Part shown: piece after piece, positions 2,878 through 46,413 of the stretch
Layout: each line of letters begins with the position of its first letter
How positions within the stretch are numbered: the stretch's first letter is position 1
The notes under the pieces: model-generated
What the model saw: only the letters and a program-made list of their open reading frames with translations
Told to the model about the DNA's origin: nothing
The model's database searches: none
Made by a program: the position numbers and the translations under genes
NCBI GenBank assembly: GCA_031257565.1
Contig: JAIROL010000294.1
Coordinates: forward strand, 1-46,642
Direction of reading: 5' to 3'
DNA from: Tannerella sp.
GTDB taxonomy: Bacteria; Bacteroidota; Bacteroidia; Bacteroidales; Tannerellaceae
DNA: 46,642 nt

Positions 2878-4350
2878 TTATGGCATTGCCGGAAGTTTCC
2901 ATCCGTCGCGATAGTCGTGGTTGATGAGTTCCGCGGCAAACGCCTGTGCATTGACCGGCTCGGTCCAGTCTTTGTTGAATGAAGGATGTCCGTCTTTGAT
3001 TGTGAAACCATCTTTGATGACTGTCTTTATGGTTTCGTTGACGCCAATATTCGTAAACTTCATATTCGGGCCATCCCAGTGCAATATTTTATTTAAGGCC
3101 TGAAGGCGAACGGCTAATACTCCCATTACCACCATTTCATTGAATGGGCCTGCCTCGCTAAAGTCGGAAGATGTTTTTATACGGTTAGCAGGACTTTCTT
3201 TACATGCGCGGACCCAGTCCATTTCATGGGAGACCGTTACTCTGCGGCATACTTTCGGGGCATTAGGCACGCGTCCGGATAATAACCAGGGATCCCGTCC
3301 GTAGCATCCGCAGATCAAAGTGTCTTTTGTTCCGTGGAATATCGCCAATCCTCCTCCGACGCCCATCAATTCTTTATCCTGCGGGAATCCTTCCGGGCGA
3401 TCCGGCATCATGCCTCCGTCGTACCAGTGTACAACAACTTCCGGCATGGCCACTTTAGACATATTATCACGGGCGGGGAATGTCAGTTTTGCATGTTGCG
3501 CCTGCGGCGCGCAGTCGTTTAGCAATAGCGTGGACGAAGCTTCCGCTTTTGTCGGATAGCCTAATTTCAATGCCTTAAATACAGGATGCATGATATGACA
3601 TGCCATATCTCCGAGCGCGCCTGTCCCGTATGGCCACCATCCGCGCCAGTTCCACGGATGATAAATATTATTGAACGGACGCATGGCTGCAGGACCTGTG
3701 AATAAATCCCAGTTTAACGTGGAAGGAACCTTATCGACTTTATCCGGCGTATTCAAGCCTTGCGGCCATATCGGACGGTCGGTAGCGCATTCTACTTTTG
3801 TTACTTCACCGATTTCGCCATTCCAGATCCATTCGCATACAAGGTTAACGCCTTCGCCCGATGCGCCCTGATTACCCATTTGTGTGGCAAGCTGATGTTT
3901 TTCCGCAAGTCTTGTCAGCAAACGCGATTCATAAACCGAATGGGTCAAAGGTTTTTGAACATATGCATGTTTCCCAAGAGTCATGGCGTCTGCTGCAATA
4001 ATAGCGTGAGTATGATCGGCTGTTGCAACGATAACGGCGTCAATTTCTTTGCCCATTTCATCGTACATCTTGCGATAATCCCAGTATTTTTTTGCTGTCG
4101 TCAGGCGGTCAAATACCGATTTTGAGTATCTCCAGTCAACATCGCAAAGAGCTACGATATTTTCCGTACCTTCTACGGCTTTCAGGTTTGCATTGCCCAT
4201 ACCGCCTATGCCTATACAGGCAATGTTTAGCTTATCCGACGGAGCTGTGTATCCATGGCTTTTTCCTAATATGGAACTGGGAGCGACAGTAAAAGCGGCA
4301 GCTGCCGCTGCGCCTTTTTGAAGGAAACTTCTTCTTGAAATGTTTGTCAT
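2878..4350 (-). CDS. Gfo/Idh/MocA family oxidoreductase with Tat signal
   Basis: SRRSFLQKGAAAAAAFTVAP Tat motif; IACIGIGGMGNANL Rossmann motif; YVQKPLTHS replaces canonical EKP. Confidence 0.92.
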   Translation of the reverse strand: MTNISRRSFLQKGAAAAAAFTVAPSSILGKSHGYTAPSDKLNIACIGIGGMGNANLKAVEGTENIVALCDVDWRYSKSVFDRLTTAKKYWDYRKMYDEMGKEIDAVIVATADHTHAIIAADAMTLGKHAYVQKPLTHSVYESRLLTRLAEKHQLATQMGNQGASGEGVNLVCEWIWNGEIGEVTKVECATDRPIWPQGLNTPDKVDKVPSTLNWDLFTGPAAMRPFNNIYHPWNWRGWWPYGTGALGDMACHIMHPVFKALKLGYPTKAEASSTLLLNDCAPQAQHAKLTFPARDNMSKVAMPEVVVHWYDGGMMPDRPEGFPQDKELMGVGGGLAIFHGTKDTLICGCYGRDPWLLSGRVPNAPKVCRRVTVSHEMDWVRACKESPANRIKTSSDFSEAGPFNEMVVMGVLAVRLQALNKILHWDGPNMKFTNIGVNETIKTVIKDGFTIKDGHPSFNKDWTEPVNAQAFAAELINHDYRDGWKLPAMP

Positions 4351-4442
4351 AGTAATGTTGTTTTACGATTTGTATATATAAAATTAGTTCAAAGTAAAAA
4401 TCAATTTAAAAACTTTTTATTTTGTGTTCTTTTATTTCTTCG

Positions 4443-4474
4443 CAAAGATAAGCAAAAAACTCTTCGCAAAGATA
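4443..4474 (-). promoter_or_regulatory. two tandem TATCTTTG (-7-like) elements, 24 bp apart, upstream of the Gfo/Idh gene
   Basis: caaagata at 4443-4450 and 4467-4474 inside the duplicated string cttcgcaaagataagcaaaaaa; possible TTTG at 4492-4495. Confidence 0.45.
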
Positions 4475-4557
4475 AGCAAAAAAAGTAAAAACAAACAGTA
4501 TAAAGATATTTTTGATGCGTTTTTTTAAACGTTCCGTTTTTTTAAGATTTTGCAACA

Positions 4558-7494: not shown

Positions 7495-8292
7495 TTAGAC
7501 AGATGCTTTTAATCCTTTTATCACCGCATTTGTAAAACCTGCCTCTTCCATTGCGTTCAGGCCTTTAATGGTAATGCCTCCGGGCGTGGTTACTTTATCA
7601 ATTTCCGCCTCCGGATGGTTGTTGTTTGTTTCGAGTAGGGCGACTGCGCCTTTCAGGGTCTGTAATTCTATTTTTTTTGCAAGTTCCGGGCTAAGTCCGA
7701 GTTCGACAGCTCCTTCGACAGCTGCCCGTATGTATCTGAAAGCATATGCTATACCGCACGAAGCAAGAGCCATGCCGGCCCCGATAAGCCGTTCTTCAAT
7801 AATAATCGTGAGTCCGAGTTCGTCAAATATATTTTTTATGATATCTGTTTGTTCCTGTGTGGCGTTATATGCGGAAACAAAATTGACGCTTTCTCTTACT
7901 TCAATGGCAGTATTGGGAATGATGCGGAAAATAGCAGGTAATTCATCTCCTTCTTTTTTCAGGAACCGACAAAGTTTGTCGAATTCGATTCCGGCTGCAA
8001 TGGATACAAAAATCTGGCGTTTATAATCCAAGGCTTCTTTAATTTCGTCTATCGTCGCTTCAATAAACCAGGGTTTAACTGCGACAATAACGATATCCGC
8101 ATCTTTTATTGCTTCTATATTATTCGTGGAGACATGAATAGATGCGTTTGCATCTTTAATTTTATTTAATTTTTCAGGCAGAATGTCCGTACAATATATC
8201 TCCGGCTCCGGCGAGTCGATTATCCTACTGCTTCCTAAACCGCGTGCAATTGCGCTTCCCATATTGCCTGCGCCAATAATCGTAAGTTTCAT
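7495..8292 (-). CDS. proC: pyrroline-5-carboxylate reductase
   Basis: MKLTIIGAGNMGSAIARGL; VVAVKPW; GPATP-like region and C-terminal TPGGITIKGLNAMEEAGF typical of ProC. Confidence 0.92.
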   Translation of the reverse strand: MKLTIIGAGNMGSAIARGLGSSRIIDSPEPEIYCTDILPEKLNKIKDANASIHVSTNNIEAIKDADIVIVAVKPWFIEATIDEIKEALDYKRQIFVSIAAGIEFDKLCRFLKKEGDELPAIFRIIPNTAIEVRESVNFVSAYNATQEQTDIIKNIFDELGLTIIIEERLIGAGMALASCGIAYAFRYIRAAVEGAVELGLSPELAKKIELQTLKGAVALLETNNNHPEAEIDKVTTPGGITIKGLNAMEEAGFTNAVIKGLKASV

Positions 8293-8316
8293 GCGTACAT
8301 TATTTAATTTTTAACA

Positions 8317-8385
8317 TTAAGGAAACATAGAACTCACAGCATGTTCATTCTCTTTGGCGCAAGCCGTTTTACCTGTTCGTTTCAT
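8317..8385 (-). CDS. candidate 22-aa leader peptide, copy proximal to proC (MKRTGKTACAKENEHAVSSMFP)
   Basis: Intact ATG-to-TAA ORF in the tandem repeat; stop lies 24 nt before the proC ATG. Confidence 0.45.
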   Translation of the reverse strand: MKRTGKTACAKENEHAVSSMFP

Positions 8386-8409
8386 GTTTACATTGTTTAT
8401 TTTTTAACA

Positions 8410-8478
8410 CTAAGGAAACATAGAACTCACAGCATGTTCATTCTCTTTGGCGCAAGCCTTTTTGCATGTTCGTTTCAT
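8410..8478 (-). CDS. candidate 22-aa leader peptide, distal copy (MKRTCKKACAKENEHAVSSMFP)
   Basis: Intact ATG-to-TAG ORF; stop lies 24 nt before the ATG of the proximal copy; TATCTTTG on the minus strand at 8508-8515. Confidence 0.45.
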   Translation of the reverse strand: MKRTCKKACAKENEHAVSSMFP

Positions 8479-8507
8479 GTTTCAATTTTTTAATGGACTT
8501 CGGGCGA

Positions 8508-8515
8508 CAAAGATA
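8508..8515 (-). promoter_or_regulatory. candidate -7 element (TATCTTTG) for leader ORFs and proC
   Basis: caaagata on + strand; no clear TTTG at -33. Confidence 0.4.
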
Positions 8516-20487: not shown

Positions 20488-20518
20488 CAAAGATAACGCA
20501 AGTTGAGAGCAATACAAA
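20488..20518 (-). promoter_or_regulatory. Bacteroidota-type promoter TTTG-N19-TATCTTTG for the T9SS plug gene
   Basis: caaagata 20488-20495 and caaa 20515-20518, 19-nt spacer, 43 nt from the ATG. Confidence 0.75.
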
Positions 20519-20751
20519 ATAAGTCTTGCTTATTTTTATTGCCGAAACGCCGCCTGTCTTCATTTTCTTGAATAAAGATAACGCAAGTTGAGAGCAATAC
20601 AAAATAAGTCCAGCTTATTTTTATTGCCGAAACGCCGCTTATCTTCATTTTCTTGAATAAAGATAACGCAAGTTGAGAGCAATACAAAATAAGTCTTGCT
20701 TATTTTTATTGCCGAAACGCCGCTTATCTTCATTTTCTTGAATAAAGATAA
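20491..20751. repeat. 85-bp tandem repeat, three copies plus a partial fourth, each carrying promoter-like sequence
   Basis: agataacgcaagttgagagcaatacaaaataag at 20491, 20576, 20661 and agata at 20746. Confidence 0.97.
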
Positions 20752-42447: not shown

Positions 42448-45400
42448 TCATCTTCTCACGATCTTTACCGCATCAGCCACTACGGAGCGCAATTTACAAT
42501 CATTTGTCAAAATAACTCTTACCGTATCCTGACTAAAGTAGTAGGTTCCCAAAAGCCCCCAACCTTCATCCGAACGCCTGAGATCAATATATGCGTGTTC
42601 CTCATCTTCGTCGTATTTCACCGTGAAATGGTATTCCGTATCTCCGTTTCCGCCACGATCGCCTCCGCCTCCGCCTCCGCCTCCGCCTCCGCGACGTCCC
42701 CTACGAACATCCTCCTGCTTATATACATAATAATACAAATCATACTGTCCTGCTACAGGAACAGGTATTTTCCAGGTTGCGCTCTGACTTCCGCTACCGC
42801 TCTTAATAACATAGGCGGAACGAACATGCGTACCGTAATACTTATCGTTTGTCGTCAACGTCCACTGCAATGGCGGACGCCAGTTTGAAATGCCGGAATA
42901 ACGGAACGAGTTATCGTCAACCTGGTCTAACCATCTCGGCAAAAGTCCGACGACGTCCGGCTCCGACAATACAAATAACAGGGAATCTTCATTATCGACA
43001 ATGATCTCTCCCGGAATGTTGTATGAAACATGCTGAAGAACAAAATCCCTTTCCTCGTCAATCGGTTTGTTTCGTTCGCGTATAATATTGCTTACAGGCA
43101 GATTGACGAGGTTCGGCAGATTAGCCGATATCAATGTATTTACGTTTATATTACGCGGAGCTTCATCCCAGACGGAAACAAGCCGCTTCGTTTCATGGGC
43201 GGCAAAAGAAACTTTGCGTTTTGCCCGCGGATCATACACATCGTTACGTCCTCCGATATTTGTTTCGACATTGATAACGCCGTCATTATCGGAGTCATTC
43301 GTAATCTGTAATTTCACCACATAGACTTCCTTATCGCGGTTAGAGATATGCGTTACTTCAGGCGCTCCTACAATATATACAGGAAGAGGGGTCGGATAAT
43401 TCCATGCTTCAAGAGGCGTAATTAAATCCTCCCCTGCAATCGCGCCCATTGTGTCAAGCAGATTTTCAAACCGAAGATTGGTAAATATATTTCGCTGCAA
43501 AACAACTCGCAGCGAATCGCGATATTCTTTGTAGCCGATATTCCGCTCTGCCGGAGCAAACAGATAATTAGCTTTCAGCGATATCACATTATCCAGCAAA
43601 TCACGCTGTTCCGTATCAGACAATAACTCTTTGAACGGACGCTGTTCCATCAACAGATTGGCCTTTTCATTATTACTTATCCCATTCATTTGTCTTATCC
43701 AGGTATTATTATCGGATTTATCCTGCAGATAAAGCTCTATCAGACGATTGGCTATAGGCCACTCCGACGAAAATATATTGTATCTGAAATTATATAACTG
43801 CGGAAATACAAAATAAGGATTAGCCTTTACCGTAACATTAACGGAACCGCGTTCCTGCGACCAGTTAAAGTCGCTTTCCGTACGCTGAAACGTCCACATA
43901 AAATTGTTCAACGCACGTATAGCTGCCTCATCATCACTAATATCCTGTCCGTTCCATTTGGCCCATCGCTTTTCATTCTTCACCCTTTTAACCACATCCG
44001 CATTATCAAACAGACAACCTTTTTCAGGAAACAGGATCATTTCCGGTTGCATTTTTTCCTGCGCCTGCGTCCATGTCCGGACATAGCTATAAAACTGCAC
44101 CGGCGTTTCCACTAAAGAAAAACGATTGAATGAATAATCCAGCGAATAGGCGCTTTCCAGCGAACGTCTACGCTCCCTGATTTGCGCGGGAATCGTGTCC
44201 ATAATAGAGTCAAAAGCAGACGTAAAATAATCATGCCCTTTCAGATGCCAGATACTGAATAAAGTACTGTCTACATCTATGCACTTTTGTTCGTAATCGC
44301 CTATAATCAGCGTTATCGAGGGGGACGGAAAGTCCGTTTCAAAAATGAAAAGACTGTCCTTCGTTTCCGGAACGACCGGCGCTTCTTCATCATTTATCTC
44401 ACGATTTCCGATATCATCCCTTTCCGTATCTCTGTGCGGAGCTATATCCTGATTTTCGTCAACGGCATGTTCTATTTTTCCGGTTTCACTTCCTTCCATG
44501 TTCACAGAGCGCTCTCTCCTTTCTCCTCTTTCGGAGCCGCTTTCCGCATTTCCTCCCGGCGTCCGTCCTTCCCCTCTTCTTGCGCCCCCTTCCGGGCGTT
44601 CTTCCTCTCTTCTTGCGCCTCTTGCGCCCCCTTCCGGGCGTTCTTCCTCTCTTCTTGCGCCTCTTTCAGGAAATCCATCTTCTCTTCTTGCGCCCCTTTC
44701 CGGACGTCCTTCCCCCCTTCTTACGCCTCTTTCAAGACGTCCTTCACGAGGCGAGCCGCCGCTTCTTTCTCCACCGCCTCTACGCGCTCTGCCGTCACCG
44801 CTCTCCGAATCGCGAGCCGTTTCCCCTTCCGGCCTCTTCCGGTCTGAAACCGCCAGATCTTTTCTGCCGGAGATCGTATCAAGCGCTCCGATAGAATCAC
44901 TTCTTTCTTCCCCTGCAGGTTTTTCCCGCGTTCTTTTCGGGCGACCGGTCCGGGCAACAACAGGTTTCTTTGCCGGAGGCCATTTCTGCGTCCCCTGCGA
45001 CAACGCTTTAAGGCCATTGATCGTCTTCACCGTCAAACGAAAATGACTGAAATAAGCCTGCTGCCAATCCGGGCTATCGCTACTGTATGAAGTTCCGGGA
45101 CGAGGATACCAATAGGTTTCGGGCGTAAAAAGCAGATAATTAGCGCTCTGAAAACTGTATTTTTTATCTATACGGAACATGTTGTTCGAATATTCCTGTT
45201 GCAGTATTTCAGCAGGAATATCCAAATAACAGAAGATATCGTCTATGCGTCCGTCATATTTCATTGTAAATAACGCCGTATCGCCTTTTAGCAGATTACG
45301 ACCGAAATCAATAAGGATAATCTGATGCTCGCGATCAAACGACAATTCTTTTTGATTGTCTCTTATTTCACGCAACAGCAATGACGGGTTCAGGCAAAAA

Positions 45401-46413
45401 GCGAAAACCGGCGAAGACTCCAAAGCCACCCCTTTCATGACTACTTCCGCCGAAATCATTTCAGGATGTTGTTCTACGGATATATCATAATGATCTATAA
45501 TCATCTTCGGCAAATTCACGTATTTATTATTAACTTCCGTATATAAATTCCGCATTTTAGCTTCCTCCAATATGGAGCTGACATGATTATAAGCAGCGAT
45601 ACATCCTGCCAGAATAAAGCAAAATGACAAAACAAGCCAACGATAACGACCGTATTTCGTATTCGGCAACCTTCGGAATAAAAATATGGAGATACAAATA
45701 AATCCTAAACCAAGCAAAAGATAGATTAAACGATGGTTTATCAATGCCGCCCAATTGGTAAAACCCACCATTGAAGACTTAACCAGCGGCAGGTTATATA
45801 CCATATAATCAAAAAGATAATAAAACTTATCTTCTATATAAAACAGCGTTAAAGCGATATAACCTAATAGAATGACAAATGTAATAGCCTGATTTTTAAT
45901 AATAAGCATCAAACTCACCGACAATCCGAATATATAGATCAAGGTAGGAACACATATCAGGAAAAAGTAAACGATATAGGCTGCCCAGTCGACAGACACT
46001 CCTGAAGCAAGATTAAAAATAACAACGATTACAATAATAATCAGGTCAAGACGAAAAAAAACATTCATATTCCCCCATATCTTTCCGATGACATATTCGG
46101 CATTACTAAGAGAGTGAACATAAAAGACTTCGGATGTATCAAGCTTTTTGTCGGACTTCAGAAATTCCGAAGATAAAAAGACCGCAATAATTGCCTGTCC
46201 GGTATTCAGAAGTAACAGGTTTACATATGGAATATTAGAAGGTAAAGCTTTCATTAACCAGAAACCGCCGGCATCTCCGGATATTAATACCGCGAAGTTA
46301 AAAATGCACAAAAACAATACGGCCAGTATAAGAAATACCCTGTAGAACCAGCTTCTCATCAAAAGCTTACTCTCATACTTCGCAACAGAGCGTACATTAC
46401 CTGATACCGACAT
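42448..46413 (-). CDS. ABC-2-like permease with large periplasmic M1-like (no HEXXH) region, Arg/Glu/Gly-rich insert and golvesin-like C-terminal domain (1321 aa)
   Basis: N-terminal ABC-2-type TM block; central ILIIGDYEQKCIDVDS...LKGHDYF...PVQFYSYVRTWTQAQEKMQPEMILFPEKG as in Bacteroidota permease/M1-type proteins; C-term GWGLLGTYYFSQDTVRVILTND...VVADAVKIVRR. Confidence 0.8.
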   Translation of the reverse strand: MSVSGNVRSVAKYESKLLMRSWFYRVFLILAVLFLCIFNFAVLISGDAGGFWLMKALPSNIPYVNLLLLNTGQAIIAVFLSSEFLKSDKKLDTSEVFYVHSLSNAEYVIGKIWGNMNVFFRLDLIIIVIVVIFNLASGVSVDWAAYIVYFFLICVPTLIYIFGLSVSLMLIIKNQAITFVILLGYIALTLFYIEDKFYYLFDYMVYNLPLVKSSMVGFTNWAALINHRLIYLLLGLGFICISIFLFRRLPNTKYGRYRWLVLSFCFILAGCIAAYNHVSSILEEAKMRNLYTEVNNKYVNLPKMIIDHYDISVEQHPEMISAEVVMKGVALESSPVFAFCLNPSLLLREIRDNQKELSFDREHQIILIDFGRNLLKGDTALFTMKYDGRIDDIFCYLDIPAEILQQEYSNNMFRIDKKYSFQSANYLLFTPETYWYPRPGTSYSSDSPDWQQAYFSHFRLTVKTINGLKALSQGTQKWPPAKKPVVARTGRPKRTREKPAGEERSDSIGALDTISGRKDLAVSDRKRPEGETARDSESGDGRARRGGGERSGGSPREGRLERGVRRGEGRPERGARREDGFPERGARREEERPEGGARGARREEERPEGGARRGEGRTPGGNAESGSERGERRERSVNMEGSETGKIEHAVDENQDIAPHRDTERDDIGNREINDEEAPVVPETKDSLFIFETDFPSPSITLIIGDYEQKCIDVDSTLFSIWHLKGHDYFTSAFDSIMDTIPAQIRERRRSLESAYSLDYSFNRFSLVETPVQFYSYVRTWTQAQEKMQPEMILFPEKGCLFDNADVVKRVKNEKRWAKWNGQDISDDEAAIRALNNFMWTFQRTESDFNWSQERGSVNVTVKANPYFVFPQLYNFRYNIFSSEWPIANRLIELYLQDKSDNNTWIRQMNGISNNEKANLLMEQRPFKELLSDTEQRDLLDNVISLKANYLFAPAERNIGYKEYRDSLRVVLQRNIFTNLRFENLLDTMGAIAGEDLITPLEAWNYPTPLPVYIVGAPEVTHISNRDKEVYVVKLQITNDSDNDGVINVETNIGGRNDVYDPRAKRKVSFAAHETKRLVSVWDEAPRNINVNTLISANLPNLVNLPVSNIIRERNKPIDEERDFVLQHVSYNIPGEIIVDNEDSLLFVLSEPDVVGLLPRWLDQVDDNSFRYSGISNWRPPLQWTLTTNDKYYGTHVRSAYVIKSGSGSQSATWKIPVPVAGQYDLYYYVYKQEDVRRGRRGGGGGGGGGGDRGGNGDTEYHFTVKYDEDEEHAYIDLRRSDEGWGLLGTYYFSQDTVRVILTNDCKLRSVVADAVKIVRR
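42661..42690. repeat. (GCCTCC)5 hexanucleotide microsatellite encoding Gly10
   Basis: gcctccgcctccgcctccgcctccgcctcc. Confidence 0.95.
44580..44666. repeat. 42-bp in-frame tandem repeat inside Arg/Glu/Gly-rich coding insert
   Basis: ttgcgcccccttccgggcgttcttcctctcttcttgcgcctctt at 44580 and 44622; diverged copies flank it. Confidence 0.9.

Follow-up and report, generated by a model that had tools for sequence, protein, structure and literature searches.

The 93-nt tandem repeat upstream of proC in the window (the whole stretch of DNA analysed, 46,642 nucleotides of a Tannerella sp. assembly) most probably consists of two units, in tandem, of a mobile repeat that is short and non-autonomous and whose precise integration site is (N)ATGAAA, chiefly at the start codons of genes. 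We put the probability of this reading at about 0.8. That the repeat has inserted at the start codon, is dispersed and forms tandem arrays, that its ends and a terminal stem are conserved and that it has spread over the phylum can be read directly from the genomes compared, whereas the steps by which the repeat moves and is tolerated are proposed below. The features of the locus are the following:

8508 to 8515, minus strand: TATCTTTG, the -7 box of the native proC promoter
8480 to 8507, minus strand: native proC 5'UTR region, conserved in the congener G034, where it is directly followed by ATGAAACTTAC
8479, minus strand: base -1 of the left junction, C in the window and T in the empty G034 site
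8386 to 8478, minus strand: promoter-distal repeat unit, 93 nt, from ATGAAACGAACATG to GTAAAC, with its ATG at the native proC start position; the site is empty in G034
8410 to 8478, minus strand: upstream ORF 1, MKRTCKKACAKENEHAVSSMFP followed by a stop; the frame varies in other copies
8293 to 8385, minus strand: proC-proximal repeat unit, 93 nt, whose right end GTACGC abuts the proC ATG
8317 to 8385, minus strand: upstream ORF 2, MKRTGKTACAKENEHAVSSMFP followed by a stop
8287 to 8292, minus strand: ATGAAA, start codon and codon 2 of proC; the hexamer (target/core) opens every unit
7495 to 8292, minus strand: proC, pyrroline-5-carboxylate reductase (Pfam P5CR_dimer, E 8.7e-30)

The initial annotation had described a 93-bp tandem duplication keeping ATG, frame and stop. 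This duplication is real: the two 93-nt units are 91% identical in an ungapped alignment (TRF score 341). The claimed spacing was also right, with 24 nt between each ORF stop and the ATG that follows (for the second ORF this is the proC ATG at 8292), and so was the view that the translation start region itself is repeated. The reported TATCTTTG (8515-8508) does lie upstream of the first ORF, 29 nt from its ATG, but it is the promoter box of proC itself, kept in the repeat-less congener. Retention of ATG, frame and stop is the expected outcome of a recent duplication free of indels. The two ORF copies differ in two codons, both changes being non-synonymous, and their 22-aa frame arose from a common 1-nt shortening, GAGTTATGAAC to GAGAATGAAC. 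Since the native proC start position is that of the first ATG, the ORFs do occupy real initiation sites.

Evidence for insertion comes from the closest congener (G034), in which filled and empty sites could be compared wherever the flanks were alignable. In G034 the 5'UTR runs uninterrupted into ATGAAA at proC, priA, dut and a hexokinase gene; further empty sites were found at panC, dusB, a susD and at L034, L202, L207, L209, L221 and L235. At proC the G034 sequence gtccattaaaaatttgaaat is directly followed by ATGAAACTTACA, and in the window gtccattaaaaaattgaaaC is followed by the two units, which start with ATGAAACG and end with GTACGC, and then by ATGAAACTTACG. Empty sites contain a single ATGAAA, filled sites one at every unit boundary, thus the hexamer forms a flanking direct repeat. 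At two loci (L216 and L032) the same start is occupied in G034 too, by a version of the element particular to that genome. Judged from these alignments, the element has inserted precisely at the start codon, and ATGAAA has been restored. At the left junction, 41 of 56 arrays have C at position -1, a base that occupies this position at 18% of background starts. Relative to G034, position -1 changed from T to C at five loci (proC, L034, panC, L209, L207) and is the same at seven (dut, priA, dusB, L223, L202, L235, L221). The simplest reading of this mixed pattern is that the exchanged region would include ATGAAA and reach position -1.

The repeat is dispersed in the genome of the window, a draft MAG of 4.47 Mb (94% complete), in which the arrays often break contigs. 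With one unit as query, 83 matches were obtained, which are spread over dozens of contigs and often lie in tandem; 171 copies of the exact left end ATGAAACGAACATG were counted (98 forward, 73 reverse) as opposed to zero occurrences of the reversed control. The 84 arrays that were retrieved and parsed consist mostly of one to three units; the largest, with six units, was seen once. Two contig ends (L036:3-238 and L037:3-226) are the two sides of a single array at the hexokinase gene, where the repeat breaks the assembly. Copies internal to contigs also occur in G297 (on a 5.26-Mb contig) and in G022 (on long contigs). Most units are 93-95 nt long, and about 30 units reach approximately 123 nt through the insert CCAACGGTCTTTTAGCGAAGCGTTAAAA. 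The ORF beginning at the first ATG encodes 4, 13, 22, 24 or 29 and more amino acids in 113 parsed units, the commonest unit having a 13-aa ORF. Among 78 units of the 94-nt class, codon changes relative to the consensus were non-synonymous in 39 and synonymous in 17 cases, which argues against selection on the peptide. What the copies conserve is the two ends and the terminal stem, not the reading frame.

In 57 of the 78 arrays followed by at least 120 nt of sequence, the ATGAAA that closes the array opens an ORF of 90 or more amino acids. The downstream genes are unrelated to each other; proC was identified by Pfam, and by recognising their translations we take others to be dut, priA, topB, dhaL, cmk, panC, dusB, susD and response regulators. 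Codon 2 is AAA in 53 of the 57 genes started by an array, compared to 56 of 263 background starts (21%). Outside ORFs, ATGAAA occurs 56 times at starts and 115 times in intergenic DNA (56/171, 33%), a background in which the start is approximated by the first ATG of the ORF and the intergenic counts include unrecognised small genes. Against this 33% the start bias of the arrays has a binomial p of 4e-13, therefore the supply of targets alone fails to explain it. About one quarter of the arrays have no recognisable gene start at their right end. Three such copies (L013:2513-2694, L024:2584-2807 and L028:3663-3763) are either insertions at non-start ATGAAA sites or relics of lost genes.

Either targeting or survival bias among random ATGAAA insertions could account for the preference for starts. 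In its pure form the latter explanation assumes a sequence-specific recombinase that inserts at random at any ATGAAA, with purifying selection as the only source of the start bias. Insertions at non-start ATGAAA sites and the nearly obligatory AAA in codon 2 fit this model, and the bias itself may be overstated because the start calls are approximate. Intergenic ATGAAA sites outnumber those at starts by about 2:1, yet starts received 57 of 78 insertions (odds about 5.6), and extra target features or context seem to be required. We regard purely random insertion as plausible, although on balance doubtful.

A stem interrupted by tandem G·A mismatches (ATGAAAC-GA-RCATG / ...TGY-GA-GTTCYAT) arises from pairing of the left end of the unit with its middle; the underlying 14-nt imperfect inverted repeat, which starts at the left end, does not extend beyond mid-unit. 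As the first pair beyond the GA step, the genome of the window has A-T and the others have G-C, and both types are present within G034. Pairing is kept in 260 of 273 pairs, while the maximum in 2000 shuffles was 249; the shuffles ignore relatedness, thus the excess is supportive rather than conclusive.

Related elements were found in other genomes. In G022, 36 end motifs were counted, and 21 of the 22 elements read are located at gene starts (the tally was taken from the element listing, the automatic right-end finder undercounting this genome). These elements have the left end ATGAAACGAAGCATG and the right end ...GTAAAAAATAAAATATCGT/ATGAAA, and their interiors belong to at least three unrelated kinds, several of which are long hairpins. 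Other families of the order have elements of the form ATGAAACGAGCATG...ATGCGAGTTCCATCCGACCTTATTAAAAAATTATTTACGG/ATGAAA with the same anatomy at gene starts. In small samples the right-end ATG coincided with a gene start in 5 of 6 (G420), 2 of 2 (G240), 5 of 6 (G034), 3 of 5 (G297), 3 of 8 (G097) and 1 of 3 cases (G226). G034 carries an element of the same anatomy at uvrC, and another congener (G021) has a similar 22-aa version before a different gene. In most of 393 genomes of the order, counts of the end motif are at the level of the control, and in scattered genomes the motif is hugely over-represented (motif/control 206/0, 131/4, 93/1, 89/0 and 59/1, among others). In a 396-genome sample of the phylum, one genome from another class (G572) contains five occurrences of the core pattern. 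A viral contig (L326:30-680, minus strand) contains one start-codon element at a small gene, with its ATGA overlapping the preceding stop. This contig is classified as Mu-like because it has AAA ATPase, GemA and DUF3164 genes, and phage transfer is a possible route for the element.

The distribution could also be that of a post-transcriptional element, a site for an RNA-binding protein or an sRNA, which was spread by selection to build an mRNA regulon. The element is always in sense orientation, at the initiation site when it is at a gene, the stem is kept with compensatory change, and the number of units ranges from one to six, all of which would suit a regulatory site. A regulon is difficult to reconcile with the unrelated functions of the downstream genes, with interiors wholly replaced between species, with species-specific bursts of copies and with copies that have no downstream gene, and we consider this explanation improbable.

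Comparison with the Rfam 15 covariance models (including HEARO) gave no match to any unit at E values up to 5, the sole weak hit falling outside the elements. The integron integrase model TIGR02249 scored above its cut-off in none of 21 genomes, and the searches revealed neither an autonomous copy nor a mobilising enzyme. No match to the unit of the window's genome or to the G420-type unit was found in the phage and plasmid collections; among viral contigs none had the former pattern and one had the latter. Searching the open-access literature by topic and by sequence strings returned no description of the repeat. Two other ideas were abandoned. A chain of mini-ORFs working by termination-reinitiation, suggested by AUGUACACAUGA overlapping the gene start in units of the window's genome, was dropped because in other genera the units end in TTTACGG/ATG, and hammerhead-like motifs were considered by eye and dropped.

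An origin as a repeat of the RNA-templated or IS200/RAYT (REP-like) kind, mobilised by a Y1 transposase, is very unlikely. The element is short, dispersed and hairpin-forming as such repeats are, but its units are flanked by direct ATGAAA repeats, Y1_Tnp (PF01797) had no match in the genome of the window (173 end motifs, 94% complete draft), and G297 (26 end motifs) was not among the Y1_Tnp matches listed. Least credible of all is the interpretation of the initial annotation, that the ORFs are a translated leader-peptide device (attenuator or coupling) regulating proC or proline synthesis, or a small peptide gene. Both copies have their ATG, stop and promoter correctly placed, and G021 has a similar 22-aa version, albeit before another gene, but homologous units with broken frames precede unrelated genes throughout the genome, the very outcome that the initial annotation had named as refuting its view, changes are mostly non-synonymous, a run of proline codons is absent, and the G034 proC orthologue has none of the repeat.

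If the locus does carry a mobile start-codon repeat, its tolerance could be explained as follows. The native promoter and 5'UTR would feed the short ORF of the element, which would begin where the gene used to start. The AT-rich right end (GTTAAAAAATAAATAATGTACAC/ATG) would become the new initiation region of the host gene, and the direct repeat would restore its ATGAAA. With a replacement initiation region and a restored ATGAAA, insertion would be tolerated at a position where the gene would otherwise be destroyed. Mobility probably involves site-specific exchange between a unit-unit junction, circular or tandem (...C/ATGAAACG...), and the target N/ATGAAA; such an exchange would leave ATGAAA on both sides and permit re-insertion into arrays. 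Gene conversion or unequal crossing-over could likewise have spread units within a genome. Both secondary structure and an A at -3 tune the Shine-Dalgarno-independent initiation of Bacteroidetes (PMC6847099). With the element in place, position -3 is occupied by C rather than the usual A and a hairpin is added, for which reason damped or altered translation is a likely by-product, mild damping being favoured over activation.

A second dispersed tandem array (85 nt x 3.1) is present in the window at 20489-20751, minus strand, with 69 matches in the genome. By the generally known promoter consensus of the phylum, the unit end, TTTG-N19-TATCTTT(G), is a complete promoter of the phylum type. The left flanks of these arrays end in a -7-like box (TAACTTT, TATCTTT or TGTCTTT). 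At dut, G034 has an insertion of the second family in the promoter, and the genome of the window has a plain promoter. As units that end in a promoter follow a native -7-like box, the logic of replacing a split signal appears twice. It is possible, and we suggest it tentatively, that Bacteroidota harbour a class of mobile repeats which home to expression signals and rebuild the signal they split, comprising the ATGAAA family and the TATCTTTG -7-box family, moved by a recombinase acting on a structured stem and rewiring the transcription or translation of dozens to hundreds of genes per genome. The window contains two further repeats: a perfect 24-nt tandem pair with CAAAGATA at 4437-4483, which is a duplicated -7 promoter box region upstream of a Gfo/Idh-like gene (2878-4350, minus strand), and 33/42-nt repeats at 44564-44745 encoding Glu/Arg/Gly-rich repeats in a 1321-aa ORF (42448-46413, minus strand).

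Should the mobile-repeat reading be correct, entry of a transposable repeat into a gene at its most sensitive base would be safe because the repeat brings a replacement initiation site with it. This would explain many "leader ORFs" of Bacteroidota genomes, start codons would be mis-set and small-ORF annotation affected, and filled and empty orthologues would be natural experiments on start-codon choice in bacteria that initiate without Shine-Dalgarno sequences.

It is instructive to compare the element with known systems. REP/BIME sequences with their RAYT (Y1) proteins and palindrome-associated IS200/IS605 derivatives are similarly short, dispersed, hairpin-forming, non-coding and often tandem, but they are not inserted at start codons, whereas our element has direct ATGAAA repeats at its ends and carries a translation-initiation region. 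We did not file it with REP/RAYT because the Y1 transposase is absent from the genome of the window. MITEs, exemplified by a P. gingivalis MITE with a minisatellite (PMC4596501), resemble the element in being small and non-autonomous, with flanking direct repeats and imperfect inverted repeats. They differ in that here the inverted repeat covers the left two-thirds only, the target is a functional codon, and no parent transposon was found. Integron attC sites are box-spacer-box stems with a variable centre and AAC/GTT at the stem base, the R box being GTTRRRY / RYYYAAC. The element shares the box-spacer-box design (ATGAAAC-GA-GCATG / CATGC-GA-GTTCCAT), the variable centre, the AAC/GTT stem base and the tandem arrays. 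It was not assigned to attC because the R-box consensus and integrase tests failed, nearly all units having GTTCTAT or GTTCCAT (GTTCYAT) in place of GTTRRRY. Gene cassettes are also absent. Direct repeats of the heptamer TAACTGA have been described ahead of start codons in Beggiatoaceae, cyanobacteria and some Bacteroidetes (PMC4679880). They resemble the element in being tandem repeats just 5' of start codons with a patchy phylogeny, but they are simple 7-nt repeats with no hairpin element, no start codon in the unit and no insertion at ATG. Leader peptides and translational attenuators also place a short ORF between promoter and gene start, but here peptide and frame are unconserved and there is no tie to a pathway. 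Compared to small non-autonomous mobile repeats, the unusual part is the homing to start codons.
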